From a virus, in the IMG/VR virus record IMGVR_UViG_3300022592_000011, positions 1-38,672 of that record: 38,672 nucleotides of DNA. One strand, 5' to 3'. The notes under the pieces were generated by a model that worked only from the letters and a program-made list of their open reading frames with translations, was not told the DNA's origin and did not search any database. Positions 462-38,672 of the stretch are shown one piece after another (position 1 is the stretch's first letter; the number at the start of each line of letters is the position of its first letter). The position numbers and the translations under genes were made by a program.

Positions 462-2396
462 ATGGCACAAAGCGGCTACACACCAATTTCAATTTATTAT
501 AGCGCAACAGCTACTAATGTCCCGTTAGCAGCAAACCTTACCAGTGGTGAGCTTGGCATTAACATTGCTGACGGTAAGTTGTACTACAAAGACAACGCCG
601 GCACAGTTCAAGTTCTAGCCTCTAAAGCTGGTAATATCAACGTGTCCTCAATTAGTTTTGGTACAACAGGATTAACACCAAGTACAACAACTACGGGTGC
701 GGTAACTGTTGCGGGCACCTTGGTGGTATCAAACGGTGGTACTGGGCAAACAACTTTAGCTACGGGGTCAATAGGGTATGGTCAAGGAACAAGTGCACAT
801 GCTGCCTTAGCAATTGGCACGGCGGGACAAGTACTAACGGTTAACAGCGGGGCCACAGCTCCACAGTGGGTAAATGCCTCGAGTATTATTGGAGGTGCTG
901 GCGGTTCTAATACTCAAGTCCAATACAACAGTTCTGGCGCTTTAGCTGGTTCTGCTAACCTTACATTTAACGGCACAACACTTACTACAGCTAATGACGC
1001 TTCTATATCAGGTCTTACTGTTGGTAAGGGTGGTGGTACTTATGCAACTATATTGGGTGCTTCAGCTTTAGCAAATGGTTTTGGTGGAAATAACACAGCT
1101 ATTGGTGCTAATGCAGCAAACGCACTTACTTCAGGAAATTCAAATACTGTTGTAGGTTCTTATGCAATGGCTACTGGTGTAGTTACTGGTACAGACAATA
1201 TTGCTTTAGGTTCACAACATTCAGGCGTAACTGCTGGTCCATTAAATTCTTTAACAAGTGGCTCTTATAATGTGGCTGTTGGTAACGGCTCTTTGCAAGC
1301 AAACACCACCGCATCTAATAACACAGCAGTAGGTTTTCAATCTGGGTATGCAAATACGACTGGTAATTATTTAACAGCTTTTGGCTATACTGCATTAGCA
1401 GCTAATACTACAGGAACTCTTAATTCTGCTTTTGGTGCTGATGCTTTATTGTCAAATACAACTGGGGGGAGTAATTCAGCAAGTGGAACTTCAGCATTAC
1501 AAAATAATACAACTGGTTCATACAATACAGCTCAAGGATACGCTTCATTAGCATCAAACACCACCGCATCTAATAACACTGCAGTAGGATTTCAGGCTGG
1601 GTATAGTAATACAACTGGTACACGAAATGTATCTTTAGGAGTTGGTGCTGGGTATGCAACTACAACAGGTAGTTACAATATTTGTATTGGTTCTTATGCT
1701 GGTCAGCAAATAACGACAGGACTTGTAAATACGCTTATTGGTGATGGTGCTGGAAATTTAATTACTACAGGCGGTAAAAACTCAATTATTGGTGGATATT
1801 CAGGAAATCAAGGCAGTCTAGACATCCGTACAGCAAGTAACTACATTGTGTTATCTGATGGTGATGGTAATCCTAGACTGTGGTGTGATAACAATGGAGA
1901 TTGGAGCACTCGTTACACCTCAACTGTTTATATGCCCGGAAACGGAGATGCTGGTACAGGCGGTCTTATTTTACAAAATGGTTCTAACAATACTTCCTAT
2001 AAAATTATTAAATTTAGAGGATGGAATAATTCAGAAACAGGTTCTATTACAACTTATGTAAACGTAACTGCGTATACAACATCTTCAGACGCTCGTTTAA
2101 AAGAGGACTTAGGACTGGCTACTGAAACTTCTGTAATTGATAATTTAAAAATACGTAATTTTGAATGGAAATCAACTGGCAAAAAAGATATTGGTGTTTT
2201 TGCACAGGAAGCTGAACCAATTAAGCCTTCAGCAGTCGTTAAAGGAACTGATGAATTAACCGAATCTGGAGATTTGGCTGTTCCGTGGTCTGTAGATTAT
2301 TCCAAATATGTTCCTGACCTTATTGTTTATTGCCAACAACTCAACGCAAAACTAGAAGCACAAGCATTAGAAATCGCAACTTTAAAAGGAAAATAA
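462..2396 (+). CDS. Tail fibre/receptor-binding protein with YadA-like beta-roll repeats and S74 chaperone domain
   Basis: The protein has 644 residues. The N-terminal 200 residues are Gly/Thr-rich fibre shaft. Residues about 200-460 hold repeated 'NTxxG..AL..NTTG' units like the head repeats of trimeric adhesins such as YadA. The last 100 residues resemble the S74 intramolecular chaperone of phage fibres: it opens with SDARLK, where Ser542 and Lys547 keep the five-residue Ser-Lys spacing of the endosialidase autocleavage site, followed by NFEWKSTGK and IGVFAQEAEPI. By analogy the domain would drive trimerisation and then be cut off before Ser542. The ATG directly follows the stop of the preceding fibre gene. 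The distal half is visibly more AT-rich than the shaft (18 of 60 G+C at 2101-2160 against 29 of 60 at 121-180), which suggests exchange of the receptor-binding tip. Confidence 0.88.
   Translation: MAQSGYTPISIYYSATATNVPLAANLTSGELGINIADGKLYYKDNAGTVQVLASKAGNINVSSISFGTTGLTPSTTTTGAVTVAGTLVVSNGGTGQTTLATGSIGYGQGTSAHAALAIGTAGQVLTVNSGATAPQWVNASSIIGGAGGSNTQVQYNSSGALAGSANLTFNGTTLTTANDASISGLTVGKGGGTYATILGASALANGFGGNNTAIGANAANALTSGNSNTVVGSYAMATGVVTGTDNIALGSQHSGVTAGPLNSLTSGSYNVAVGNGSLQANTTASNNTAVGFQSGYANTTGNYLTAFGYTALAANTTGTLNSAFGADALLSNTTGGSNSASGTSALQNNTTGSYNTAQGYASLASNTTASNNTAVGFQAGYSNTTGTRNVSLGVGAGYATTTGSYNICIGSYAGQQITTGLVNTLIGDGAGNLITTGGKNSIIGGYSGNQGSLDIRTASNYIVLSDGDGNPRLWCDNNGDWSTRYTSTVYMPGNGDAGTGGLILQNGSNNTSYKIIKFRGWNNSETGSITTYVNVTAYTTSSDARLKEDLGLATETSVIDNLKIRNFEWKSTGKKDIGVFAQEAEPIKPSAVVKGTDELTESGDLAVPWSVDYSKYVPDLIVYCQQLNAKLEAQALEIATLKGK
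1301..1579 (+). repeat. Duplicated 24-base fibre repeat
   Basis: A 24-base sequence beginning aaacaccaccgcatctaata is identical at 1301-1324 and 1556-1579 inside the fibre gene. The flanking bases are nearly alike and encode the same 'NTTASNNTAVGFQ' peptide. It marks a recent duplication of a beta-roll segment and is a possible site for repeat-number change. Confidence 0.75.
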
Positions 2397-2397
2397 A

Positions 2398-2730
2398 ATG
2401 ACCGAATTTAACTGGAACATCACAGCAATGTCTACACTACCCCAAGTAGACGGAGAAACAGATGTAGTAGTATTGGCGCAATGGATTTGTGCTGGTGACC
2501 AATCAGGCACAACCGCTGAAATTGGCGGGAACAGCCAGTTCACTATTCAACAAGGCGGAACATTTACACCATACGCAGACCTTACAGAAGCACAAGTAAT
2601 GCAATGGGTATTTGATGCGCTAGGTGAAGATGGTATTGCCAACACACAGGCTTGCGTACAAGGGCAGATTGATTCAATCCTAAATCCTCCTGTATCACCT
2701 AGCAATCAAGCTTTGCCTTGGTCAGCTTAA
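2398..2730 (+). CDS. Small conserved fibre-adjacent protein, function unknown
   Basis: A 110-residue acidic protein starting at an ATG one base after the stop of the S74 fibre gene. It has a beta-rich centre (DVVVLAQWICAGDQSG, then GNSQFTIQQGG), a helical 'LTEAQVMQWVFDALG' segment, and a Pro-rich tail ending LPWSA. I recall similar short proteins next to fibre genes of other environmental phages, so a virion or fibre-assembly role is possible. No catalytic motif is seen. It is followed by a hairpin region before the next gene. Confidence 0.75.
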   Translation: MTEFNWNITAMSTLPQVDGETDVVVLAQWICAGDQSGTTAEIGGNSQFTIQQGGTFTPYADLTEAQVMQWVFDALGEDGIANTQACVQGQIDSILNPPVSPSNQALPWSA

Positions 2731-2737
2731 AAATTTA

Positions 2738-2765
2738 GGGCAAGCCACCAGCCCTTTTTGGTGGC
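2738..2765 (+). terminator. Two mutually exclusive hairpins, possible weak terminator/attenuator
   Basis: In the 52-base gap, GGGC (2738-2741) can pair with GCCC (2751-2754), directly followed by five T (2755-2759), which is a weak intrinsic terminator. GCCACC (2744-2749) can instead pair with GGTGGC (2760-2765), and forming that stem uses the loop of the first and sequesters the T-run in its own loop. The next gene's AGGAG ribosome site follows at 2772-2776. Whether this terminates or attenuates is inference. Confidence 0.4.
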
Positions 2766-2782
2766 ACATTTAGGAGAAAATT

Positions 2783-3016
2783 ATGGGCGAGAAAAAACCA
2801 AACCCCGTAACAATCAATGATAAAGAGTATGAGCATTCTGATTTAACACTAGAGCAACAAGCGCTTTTTAATCATTGTATCGACTTAGATCGCAAGATTG
2901 GCAGCGCACAGTTCAATCTGGATCAGCTCAATGTAGGCAAGAATGCCTTCATCAAGTTGCTAGAAGATTCACTAGCGGCCCCGGTTGAAAAAGCCGAAGT
3001 AGAAGTACTTCAATAA
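2783..3016 (+). CDS. Small DUF6447-like protein
   Basis: A 77-residue protein. It has the pattern 'VTINDKEYEHSDLTLEQQAL' followed by a helix with LDRKIGSAQFNLDQLNVGKNA, resembling the DUF6447 family of small phage proteins (a short beta-turn with 'V.I.G..Y', then a coiled helix with regularly spaced Leu/Gln). A good AGGAG Shine-Dalgarno lies seven bases before the ATG. The function is unknown. It sits between the fibre genes and the lysis cassette. Confidence 0.7.
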   Translation: MGEKKPNPVTINDKEYEHSDLTLEQQALFNHCIDLDRKIGSAQFNLDQLNVGKNAFIKLLEDSLAAPVEKAEVEVLQ

Positions 3017-3021
3017 AAACC

Positions 3022-3044
3022 TTGGCGGCCTAACCCGCCGCCAA
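3022..3044 (+). other. Perfect 8-bp hairpin between genes
   Basis: TTGGCGGC (3022-3029) and GCCGCCAA (3037-3044) form a perfect stem with a seven-base loop just after the stop of the preceding gene. No T-run follows, so it is not a canonical terminator. It could stabilise or process the mRNA upstream of the lysis genes. Confidence 0.6.
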
Positions 3045-5320: not shown

Positions 5321-5650
5321 ATGAAAGATTTTAAACAAACCACCAAAATGTCCGCAGAAGGTAGCCATTACTGCAAAGGCGGTAAGATTAAAAAAATGGC
5401 CGAAGGTGGCAGTACATCGTATTCACCGTATGACCCAAGTAAAGAAACTGAAGTTGGTGGCAATATAGGTACAAGAACTTTTGTTGAAGAAGCCAAAAAA
5501 GGTTGGTCCACAAAGCCAATGCAACAACGACTTGATGAGGCATACCAAAAATCTACAGAAGCTCGAGATGAAGCTAAACGCGAGGCATCGCGTGGTGTCA
5601 GTCCGGAGAATCGTAAAAAACGCGGTGGTTCTGTAAAAAGAAAGAAGTAA
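5321..5650 (+). CDS. Small charged protein with Gly-Gly-Lys motif
   Basis: A 109-residue protein. Residues about 16-31 (HYCKGGKIKKMAEGG) carry the same CxGGKIxK..(A)xGG motif as the gene at 4517. A Lys/Glu-rich helix ('AKKGWSTKPMQQRLDEAYQK') follows, and the C terminus is RGGSVKRKK. The function is unknown. Its position between promoter copy 2 and the connector genes, and the shared motif, suggest a virion or assembly role. Confidence 0.72.
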   Translation: MKDFKQTTKMSAEGSHYCKGGKIKKMAEGGSTSYSPYDPSKETEVGGNIGTRTFVEEAKKGWSTKPMQQRLDEAYQKSTEARDEAKREASRGVSPENRKKRGGSVKRKK

Positions 5651-5653
5651 CCC

Positions 5654-6721
5654 ATGGCCTATAGCAACACCACTGGAAATACAACAGTCAACGTTGATCA
5701 ACTGATCTCCTTTGCGTTTCGTGACGCCGGTAAGACCGCAGAAGAAATGACCCCGGAGCTTATTGGTGCCGCCAAGCAGGCATTGTTTTATAATCTTCAA
5801 AACCTATCTAACCTCGGTGTTAATCTTTGGTTGTTGGAGAACATGCTCGTTGGCGCCGTAACGGCCCAGCAACAGTTAGTCCTACCTAAGACAGTGATTG
5901 ATGTACGAGAATCAAACTGGGTCTACATTATCAACCAGGCAGCCTCTGAGTACTTGCCTATTAGTAATCCAGATTCACCTGCAGTATTTGATCAAAACCT
6001 GTCCTTGGTTTCTACCTCCACAGTTGGTGCTAACTATTTTGGTCTTCAGTACCAATCAGCACAGCCTGTCTACTACGTTGGGTTTAATGGCTACGCAGTA
6101 GGTACTGGCACAACAACATATAACTTTGCCTATGAGACCAGCGAAGATGGAATCACTTGGACAACAGTAAAGCAACTACCGACTACAACACTCTCAGATA
6201 AAGAGTGGGCCTACTTTAACATCACCACAACACCAACGCACCTTTACTACAGGCTGCGTGAAACGGTTGCACCTACGTTCTCTATACGTCAAATCGTATT
6301 CTCTACGAGCCAGCAAGTCATTCCACTCGCCCGTTTAAATCGCGATGACTACTGGAATCTCCCAAATAAACAGTTCCCTAGCCAGCGCTCATTGCAGTAT
6401 TGGTTTGATAGGACCATTGAGCCCTCGATGTACATCTGGCCAGTGCCCAATAACTCGTTTCAAATGTTTCAGTTAATTGTTGAGGTTCAAATGCAAGATG
6501 TAGGATCTTTGACAAATCAGATTTACGTACCAGATCGCTGGGTAAACTGTGTCCAAAAACAATTGTCACATTCTATGTCTTTACAACTCCCCGGAGTCGA
6601 CATGGTTCGCGTTCAATACTTAGAAGCACAAGCTGGAAAAGCATTCTTACAAGCTAGTGAGGAAGATAGGGACAAATCACCCATTTATTTTACTCCCGCG
6701 ATAAGGTACTATACTTCGTGA
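5654..6721 (+). CDS. Virion connector/adaptor-region structural protein with discoidin-like insert
   Basis: A 355-residue protein. The N-terminal 65 residues are helical (VDQLISFAFRDAGKTAEEM, then ALFYNLQNLSNLGVNLWLL), as in head-tail adaptor-type proteins. Residues about 120-220 form a beta-sandwich-like segment (YETSEDGITWTTV, YYRLRE, IRQIVF) like discoidin or galactose-binding folds. The C-terminal third (NRDDYWNLPNK, QYWFDRTIEPSMYIWPVP) matches a pattern I associate with tail tubular or adaptor-region proteins of short-tailed phages. It is followed by a four-base GTGA overlap with a homing endonuclease, then by a second adaptor-type gene. The exact position in the virion is inference. Confidence 0.72.
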   Translation: MAYSNTTGNTTVNVDQLISFAFRDAGKTAEEMTPELIGAAKQALFYNLQNLSNLGVNLWLLENMLVGAVTAQQQLVLPKTVIDVRESNWVYIINQAASEYLPISNPDSPAVFDQNLSLVSTSTVGANYFGLQYQSAQPVYYVGFNGYAVGTGTTTYNFAYETSEDGITWTTVKQLPTTTLSDKEWAYFNITTTPTHLYYRLRETVAPTFSIRQIVFSTSQQVIPLARLNRDDYWNLPNKQFPSQRSLQYWFDRTIEPSMYIWPVPNNSFQMFQLIVEVQMQDVGSLTNQIYVPDRWVNCVQKQLSHSMSLQLPGVDMVRVQYLEAQAGKAFLQASEEDRDKSPIYFTPAIRYYTS

Positions 6722-37556: not shown

Positions 37557-37742
37557 CTATTCTCCTATTCCGTGGGCTCGTTCGATGGCGCGGGCGATTT
37601 CAATTGGGAAGTATTTGTGTTTGGCTATCTCCCAGCATTGGTCTACATACTCTTGAGTTTGTTTGTAGATTTCCATACACTGCTCTTCAGTCAACGGGGT
37701 ACGTTGCGCATCTTGCCGGTCTTGTGTGGTGAAGGTGGTCAT
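37557..37742 (-). CDS. Small charged protein, unknown
   Basis: A 61-residue protein (QRTPLTEEQCMEIYKQTQEY, then HKYFPIEIARAIERAHGI). The C-terminal 'P.eiaRAIErAHGIg' is a short pattern I have seen in phage early proteins. The ATG overlaps the upstream stop (TAATG). Confidence 0.65.
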   Translation of the reverse strand: MTTFTTQDRQDAQRTPLTEEQCMEIYKQTQEYVDQCWEIAKHKYFPIEIARAIERAHGIGE

Positions 37743-38062
37743 TAATTTTTATCCTTTACTTGGTGCCATTTAACAAAATTTACTGCGTCCCAGAAGCCGT
37801 TCTCGTAATCTGTTGAGTTACTGCCTGTCATGGTAATGTCTTGATACCAGACAATCATCTTTTCTAGGTGTGCAAGTCGGTCCCGCATCTTCTTTAGCTC
37901 ATCCCATGGTACACCTACTACGTTGTTAGGTCTTTTAGATAAGTCTTGCAAGCCCCCTATCAAATCCGCTGCACGATTAAGTAAGGGAATTAAATCAGCA
38001 ATTGGGTAAGGCTTTACTCTAATAGTACTGACTGCCTGTCTAAGCTCTTCCTGTAGTGTCAT
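37742..38062 (-). CDS. Small helical protein, unknown
   Basis: A 106-residue protein: helices LQEELRQAVSTIRV, LIPLLNRAADLIGGLQDLSK and WDELKKMRDRLAHLEKMIVW, ending in DAVNFVKWHQVKDKN. Looks like a small coiled-coil phage early protein. The ribosome site for its ATG is part of the repeated AAAGG.ACAAGAGAAATG junction (38060-38079). Confidence 0.68.
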   Translation of the reverse strand: MTLQEELRQAVSTIRVKPYPIADLIPLLNRAADLIGGLQDLSKRPNNVVGVPWDELKKMRDRLAHLEKMIVWYQDITMTGSNSTDYENGFWDAVNFVKWHQVKDKN

Positions 38063-38262
38063 TTCTCTTGTACCTTTCCATGTTTAGTTAAAGCATCTGC
38101 CAAAACAATGCCTATTTCATTGTCCCAAACTGTATTTTGACCGTCACTCCAACCTTCTTGAACATAGATAACCTCTTGGTCATAGTTAATATCGTAAGTT
38201 ACTTTTGACCTACTAACACGCTTTTGAGTACATAAATCTTCACGCATTTCAGTTAGGCTCAT
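38059..38262 (-). CDS. Small beta-rich protein, unknown
   Basis: A 67-residue protein (MSLTEMREDLCTQKRVSRSK, YDINYDQEVIYVQEGWSDGQ, IGIVLADALTKHGKVQEK). A beta-rich middle with a Gln/Glu-Gly-Trp turn. Its last residues KVQEK match the KAQEK ends of two neighbours. AAGGAAGAG before the ATG. Confidence 0.65.
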   Translation of the reverse strand: MSLTEMREDLCTQKRVSRSKVTYDINYDQEVIYVQEGWSDGQNTVWDNEIGIVLADALTKHGKVQEK

Positions 38263-38271
38263 TTCTCTTCC

Positions 38272-38361
38272 TTAAATAAATCTAGCAATGATATAAACAA
38301 TAACCGCACCAAGTAACCACCATTTAAAACTGCCATCAAATACCCAGTTTATAAAGTTCAT
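38272..38361 (-). CDS. Tiny membrane peptide
   Basis: A 29-residue peptide with one membrane helix (FKWWLLGAVIVYIIARFI). Its ATG overlaps the stop of the upstream gene (ATGA) and it uses the repeated AAAGGCACAAGAGAAATG junction as ribosome site. Function unknown. Confidence 0.55.
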   Translation of the reverse strand: MNFINWVFDGSFKWWLLGAVIVYIIARFI

Positions 38362-38459
38362 TTCTCTTGTGCCTTTCTCATTAAATAACTTACAAACACA
38401 TGACAAAAATAACCCAATGCAAAAGCAATGTCGTAGCTAATCATGTCTATTCCGTTCAT
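38358..38459 (-). CDS. Tiny hydrophobic protein
   Basis: A 33-residue peptide (MNGIDMISYDIAFALGYFCH, VFVSYLMRKAQEK) with one likely membrane helix. Its RKAQEK end and the following start are copied almost exactly in the next upstream gene. ATGA overlaps at both ends. Confidence 0.55.
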   Translation of the reverse strand: MNGIDMISYDIAFALGYFCHVFVSYLMRKAQEK

Positions 38460-38672
38460 TTCTCTTGTGCCTTTCTTAGTATGTCCTCAACAATAAATTT
38501 AAGCCCAAGAACATTGATGTCTGCCGAACTTGGGTGAACCTGACAACATAGAACCATGCGGTGTATAAAGTCACCTATTTCCTCATCTGTTAGTGTCTTT
38601 GCTGGTGGTTTTTGCCATAACACTTCAACAATCCTATGTTCGTCATCTGTATAAGTAACGGCTAATAGTTCA
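38456..38672 (-). CDS. Unknown protein, C-terminal part (5' end outside window)
   Basis: At least 72 residues, open to the window edge. Sequence features are VTYTDDEHRIVEVLWQKPPA, LTDEEIGDFIHRMVLCCQVH and NVLGLKFIVEDILRKAQEK. Helical, with a Cys-Cys pair. No family recognised from this part. Confidence 0.65.
   Translation of the reverse strand, partial: ELLAVTYTDDEHRIVEVLWQKPPAKTLTDEEIGDFIHRMVLCCQVHPSSADINVLGLKFIVEDILRKAQEK

Follow-up and report, generated by a model that had tools for sequence, protein, structure and literature searches.

A recurrent stop/restart repeat at the borders of tiny phage genes as a probable hub of homology for gene gain, loss and reshuffling

Results

The window (the whole stretch of DNA analysed here, a virus record of 38,672 bases) encodes on its minus strand a DNA polymerase A, a B12-type ribonucleotide reductase, an Enc34-type single-stranded DNA-binding protein, a DUF2800 exonuclease and a SNF2-type helicase, and carries at its 38-kb end a row of tiny minus-strand genes. 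One repeat, termed linker A, occupies four junctions of this row: twice as a perfect 23-mer, once with a C to T change in its core, and once in degenerate form. The 18-base core (AAGGCACAAGAGAAATGA, minus strand) ends one gene as K-A-Q-E-K-stop and provides the next gene with an overlapping ATG. The 23-mer AGAAAGGCACAAGAGAAATGAAC matches the window twice without mismatch (38356-38378 and 38454-38476, minus strand) and had no match in 100 dinucleotide shuffles, and the core pattern AARGYACAAGAGAAATGA occurs three times (38059-38076, 38358-38375 and 38456-38473, all on the minus strand) versus 0.17 times expected. The original prediction had described two perfect copies and a third close one, and these were all recovered, together with the fourth, degenerate copy.

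Each full copy encodes K(A/V)QEK-TGA at the end of an open reading frame (ORF), and the ATG overlapping this TGA (ATGA) opens the next ORF, so that the repeat is, as had been proposed, both the end of one gene and the start of another. All the genes concerned lie on the minus strand. Copy 1 (38454-38476; core 38456-38473) supplies KAQEK-TGA to the window-edge gene (38456-38671), which is truncated by the edge, ends ...LTDEEI...FIVEDILRKAQEK* and is complete (124 aa) in a related locus, L123; it also supplies the ATG of a 33-aa gene (MNGIDMISYD..., 38358-38459). The latter has a linker at each end, since copy 2 (38356-38378; core 38358-38375) provides its KAQEK-TGA as well as the ATG of a predicted 29-aa gene (MNFINWVFDG..., 38272-38361). 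The degenerate copy (TTTAAGGAAGAGAAATGA, 38259-38280) precedes a 67-aa gene (MSLTEM..., 38059-38262), and a full linker stands at the same junction in three other loci (L218-L220). Copy 3 (AAGGTACAAGAGAAATGA, 38059-38076) gives KVQEK-TGA to the 67-aa gene and the ATG to a 106-aa gene (37742-38062). The genes separated by the copies (33, 29, 67 and 106 aa) have no evident mutual relation, in agreement with the first reading of this DNA. A weak Pfam match of the window-edge gene to Phage_int_SAM_4 fell under the family cut-off and was discarded.

One element of the original prediction was wrong, namely that small genes are joined or swapped in frame. The linker ATG lies in a third frame, and the other frames meet a stop: TGA in all copies, and also TAA in those with a ...CTAAGA... 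extension. The linker thus isolates reading frames instead of fusing them.

Two further elements were noted in the same region. A second type of junction, linker B (GCCCACGGAATAGGAGAATAG, 37557-37577, minus strand; ...AHGIGE-TAG followed by ATG), lies in the tiny-gene run, and a 30-nt block encoding PAKTLTDEEI (38576-38605, minus strand) lies within the window-edge gene and recurs exactly in many otherwise different genes.

To describe the repeat beyond the window, 285 junctions with enough flanking sequence were taken from 155 loci, leaving 240 distinct gene pairs after removal of repeats; their upstream sequences form 177 clusters and their downstream sequences 199. Conservation is almost total up to the end of the ATGA, a portion biased by the exact search, drops sharply beyond it, and fades upstream of position -19. 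A long form, in which TTGCTAGAGCAATACTAAGA precedes the core (peptide FARAILRKAQEK*, the FARAIL tail), matches in no fewer than 19 of 22 positions at 85 of the 240 junctions, and in 57 the upstream similarity is below 10/22, leaving the core only. The TGA terminates an ORF of 25 codons or longer in 215 junctions, 4 of which have an ORF of this length in the TAA frame too; only the TAA of ...CTAAGA... closes such an ORF in 16, and neither stop does in 9. In those 16 junctions it is therefore the DNA, not the peptide, that is kept. Gaps between successive copies (n = 116, in 144 non-redundant loci) have a median of 226 nt; 82 of them are 2 mod 3, as required by a single ORF ending in TGA, and 26 are 1 mod 3, as expected for one ending in TAA. 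The predicted RNA fold of the linker was not better than that of shuffled sequences (z = 0.74, 0.21 and 1.57). As for nearby starts that lack the linker (n = 938), 295 share an ATGA overlap with the ORF before them and 498 have a GGAG, AGGA, GAGG or AAGG site.

A search for further copies outside the window, which the original prediction had called for, recovered them. In a pattern scan of viral contigs the 18-mer core was found in at least 120 stretches, versus 11 stretches, with one match each, for the reversed 18-mer in a complete scan. Within the 49 long records behind our loci, the 18-mer is present in 48 (103 copies, 1 to 9 per record, on a single strand within each record), and the reversed control had no match in the same 49. 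These records do not form one lineage, as their polymerases and virion genes differ: close relatives (75% or more) of the window's polymerase are present in 6 of the 49 and any relatives in 14, relatives of one structural protein in 23, and a Terminase_6N match in 17, bearing in mind that the records may be fragments and that a missing polymerase, structural or terminase match is not proof of absence. Outside viral contigs, the linker was seen in four MAG contigs of the reference genome collection and in the circular genome MW202753 (35,640 bp; source, Manatee Spring), which has two linkers and a protein, UOF81608, that starts at a linker ATG. This genome was the sole convincing record when the 38-base linker was compared with the INPHARED phages; a 2.2-kb blastn query from the window region had no match in the same phages, nor had a typical cassette protein in a tblastn search of phages. 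At 2346-3031 of MW202753, a linker-started ORF (MNANELAD...) and the next ORF (MNNEPVAW...) have no annotated gene in the deposit. A linker was also seen in a contig binned to Candidatus Nitrosotalea (JAHEYD010000010.1), probably a wrongly binned phage contig. We take these phages to be freshwater ones, an assumption drawn from Manatee Spring, the lake-type names of the MAGs and the metagenome numbers.

A set of 67 non-redundant loci was fetched by the helicase and not by the linker (two of them had also been fetched by the linker). Here, the core is the start-region k-mer common to most unrelated gene pairs (28 upstream and 27 downstream clusters), with linker B in second place (20 and 18). 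The 18-mer lies on the early strand in 15 of the 67 loci and on the other strand in none, many of these contigs being short and possibly ending before the linker region. The KAQEK-stop is spelled exactly AAGGCACAAGAGAAATGA in 30 of 36 sequences of the helicase loci, despite the many synonymous spellings available, a uniformity that could come from common descent, selection or both. Further start-region k-mers, for example AAGAAAGGAAGTAA and GAGTGTGGAAAATG, are common to unrelated genes in these loci, so that more linker types may exist.

We then compared gene order and content among relatives. The helicase of L123 is 98% identical to that of the window, and three blocks of the window's reverse complement (1-220, 191-315 and 301-406) match L123 at 6407-6626, 5854-5978 and 5518-5623, respectively, with 97-99% DNA identity. 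The order of the blocks is hence reversed relative to the window, while the orientation of each is kept, and the junctions of the blocks are linkers or linker variants; the 29-aa gene has a different position in L123. When the 67-aa gene was searched alone, it was found in 22 viral loci, with many different neighbours upstream and downstream. Altogether, 11 two-sided differences were recorded, several of them sharing a locus, in which homologous flanks enclose different content exactly between linkers. The slot between the gene ending IVEDILRKAQEK and MNFINW holds the single 33-aa gene in the window and six genes in L218; L221 has one additional 115-aa gene relative to L218, L025 two genes relative to L118, and L212 one relative to L214, with L052/L071 as a further linker-bounded pair. 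Identical junctions recur in separate metagenomes (L218/L219/L220, L210/L211/L212, L216/L217, L203/L205 and L204/L206). Content and order between copies thus both vary among close relatives, and the opposite outcome, no copies beyond the window together with an identical gene order in all relatives, was looked for and did not occur. Apart from these whole-gene differences, the 106-aa protein and its counterpart in L123 (6620-6973) have a common C-terminal part from RPNNVVGV and differing N-terminal parts, an intragenic chimera adjoining a linker.

Linker starts were weighed against other starts, with ascertainment as a concern, most loci having been fetched by the linker itself. A strict test counted only starts with an upstream gene for which 120 nt or more of homology exists elsewhere, in 222 non-redundant loci out of 276. 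For 87 of 90 linker starts there is at least one relative in which this upstream homology ends at the start; the same holds for 169 of 394 non-linker starts no more than 1.5 kb away and for 186 of 713 distant ones; downstream, the corresponding figures are 77/89, 224/394 and 216/768. It is the frequent breakage at the other nearby starts (43%) that marks the whole region as mosaic. In linker-containing loci, a 3' homology end coincides with 90 of 211 linker starts versus 57 of 938 others. Of all 3' homology ends, 174 of 691 fall at a linker edge, versus 16.4 ± 4.0 by random shifts, and 123 of 665 5' ends do so, versus 24.2 ± 4.7. Among helicase-only loci the raw rate at linker starts is not raised (3' ends, 4/28 versus 45/196; 5' ends, 2/28 versus 58/196), and homology stops at all of the linker starts with testable upstream homology, four only, versus 43 of 80 starts nearby. 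Where the 67-aa gene had served as the query (22 loci), homology stops at 32 of 34 linker starts versus 24 of 73 others.

For linker B (AIERAHGIGE-stop; 23 distinct junctions in our loci and 63 viral stretches) the strict test gave 18/29 upstream and 31/37 downstream with no two-sided event, a less clear outcome than for linker A. It occurs three times in a row in L123 (7149, 7355 and 7497), and in the window and L123 lies nearer to the core genes than linker A. The LTDEEI block inside genes is present as 72 exact copies in 59 linker loci, and its flanks fall into 55 clusters on the left and 56 on the right. A second accumulation of homology ends lies at this block, which is possibly an intragenic exchange point.

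The proteins that start at a linker (n = 238) fall into 128 clusters, of which 102 are singletons; the largest single-linkage cluster has 65 members, with a protein of the LTDEEI...FARAILRKAQEK type as its listed example. Scans of cluster representatives (124 of the 128, four of 24-25 aa being left out) with PADLOC, Pfam and PHROGs (for the last, the best 25 of 71 families) gave mostly single matches, to polymerase, YqaJ, sigma-70 region 4, ADDT, radical SAM and others. A role of the linker genes in defence or counter-defence was unsupported by these scans. With regard to recombination genes, the 49 long records include matches to ERF (n = 16), DUF2800 (n = 14) and YqaJ (n = 5), at least one of the three being present in 29 records and none in 20. 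Tyrosine integrase (PF00589) and serine resolvase (PF00239) were each found in 0 of the 49, which may be fragments.

Discussion

Taken together, these data suggest, with a probability of roughly two in three, that the repeat is a translational stop/restart linker which acts as a hub of homology for the gain, loss and reshuffling of genes. Each linker would combine the tail codons of one gene with the region where translation of the next begins, including the overlapping ATGA. As its ATG would open one frame and copies with the ...CTAAGA... extension would stop the other two, nearly any small gene on either side of it should stay separate and be translated by restart, so that neighbouring genes may be translationally coupled. 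Because the same 18 to 38 bases recur at many junctions in many phages, short stretches of identity lie at gene borders, and recombination at linkers would add, remove or reorder whole small genes with reading frames unbroken, the stop/start design rendering each product translatable. The whole-gene differences between relatives are in line with the predicted use of these junctions as sites of gain and swap of small genes.

The crossover itself would take place inside the linker, most likely through phage-encoded strand annealing during co-infection or replication of concatemers. Rad52-like phage recombinases and lambda Red recombine diverged homologies and drive mosaicism, according to PMC3945230 and PMC2327257; this, along with the presence of ERF, DUF2800 and YqaJ and the absence of integrase and resolvase from the records, favours annealing between linkers.

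The strongest competing explanation, though an improbable one, is that the linker is just a favoured translation start signal spread by copying, and that shuffling reflects illegitimate recombination anywhere, with selection keeping the products joined at gene borders. The position of the linker at gene starts would fit, as would the 295 nearby linker-free starts with the same ATGA overlap and the frequent breaks at other starts of the region. Yet 18 to 38 identical bases between unrelated genes exceed the needs of a ribosome site, more than half of the nearby starts (498/938) have a GGAG-like site without any linker, and within the same loci breaks are far more frequent at linker starts than at others. 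Somewhat less probable still is that a single gene family (LTDEEI...FARAILRKAQEK) is expanding and that the linker is its 3' end, inserted or duplicated copies having left their tail at other genes. The FARAIL tail in 85/240 junctions and the largest cluster (65/238), exemplified by a member of this type, speak for it; the 57 core-only junctions, the 102 singletons among 128 clusters and the 16 junctions with the tail out of frame of the long upstream ORF speak against it. The linker nonetheless probably originated as the 3' end of this large family, and some of its spread may therefore be proliferation of the family.

A site-specific cassette system of the integron kind, with the linker as the recognition site at which a recombinase inserts genes, is very unlikely. 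The clean whole-gene differences and the single orientation of all copies would be expected of it, but neither class of recombinase was found (0/49 each, although fragments or another enzyme class could lead to its being missed) and the RNA fold is no better than in shuffles. Least plausible of all is that the differing gene orders are assembly errors, even though, except for MW202753 and the four MAG contigs, the loci are metagenome virus contigs, in which repeats of 18-38 bases can be misjoined, since identical junctions recur in separate metagenomes (five sets), a circular genome from another site has two linkers, and several segments are reordered between the window and L123 at 97-99% identity.

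The preferred reading, a translatable joint used for recombination, can be set beside several known systems. Integron gene cassettes are single genes with a common short sequence at each end, and are inserted and reordered. Linker-bounded genes resemble them in all these respects, but differ from them in that no site-specific integrase or resolvase was found in the 49 records (possibly fragments; PF00589 and PF00239) and no attC-like structure was recognised. PeSL, the promoter early stem-loop reportedly described by Arbiol in 2010 and Comeau in 2014, is said to be a promoter with a stem-loop, as its name indicates. Such elements of T4-type phages are cited in a passage of PMC4503421; the linker, in contrast, has no predicted fold (the z values above), is largely coding, and joins overlapping genes. 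The start-associated sequence (SAS) of cluster K mycobacteriophages, in the passages of PMC3203893 devoted to it, is an asymmetric 13-base repeat just upstream of starts that has been linked to translation initiation; like the linker, it has mostly one orientation and is found at genes of different families. Those same passages place it upstream of gene starts without mention of gene exchange, and give its extended form, ESAS, inverted repeats, none of which was seen in the linker. By reading, the linker core AAGGCACAAGAGAAATGA also differs from the GGGATAGGAGCCC-type 13-mer of SAS.

The closest likeness is to the conserved boundary sequences discussed in part of PMC3233612, short border sequences proposed, as we propose for the linker, to be targets of homologous recombination that swaps modules. 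As with these, the linker lies at borders of unrelated genes (240 distinct pairs) and homology between relatives stops at it (87/90 versus 169/394). Compared with their description there, the linker differs in being itself the stop and start of genes, in occurring up to nine times per record, in recurring across phages with unrelated core genes, and in delimiting single tiny genes. Our literature searches found no earlier description of this linker. Judged from sequence, its novelty would lie in a translational stop/restart joint that delimits single tiny genes and is common to phages with unrelated core genes.

The part of PMC3233612 in question sets out two origins for phage mosaicism, either homologous recombination where short boundary sequences are conserved or illegitimate joining sorted by selection, and notes that whether recombination is aimed at such boundaries or selection acts on random joins has long been disputed. 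With the linker there is a defined short sequence, together with many junctions and natural pairs of loci whose before and after states are one gene apart, which makes the targeted model directly testable. The linker is also an easy query with which to find accessory genes of these phages, a large and unannotated pool. More speculatively, and with the odds somewhat against it, unrelated freshwater phages might share a "plug standard", a stop/start linker of 18-38 bases kept across lineages for the exchange of single small genes, drawn from one pool, by short-homology recombination; if so, each of these genomes could take up any linker-bearing gene and translate it immediately.
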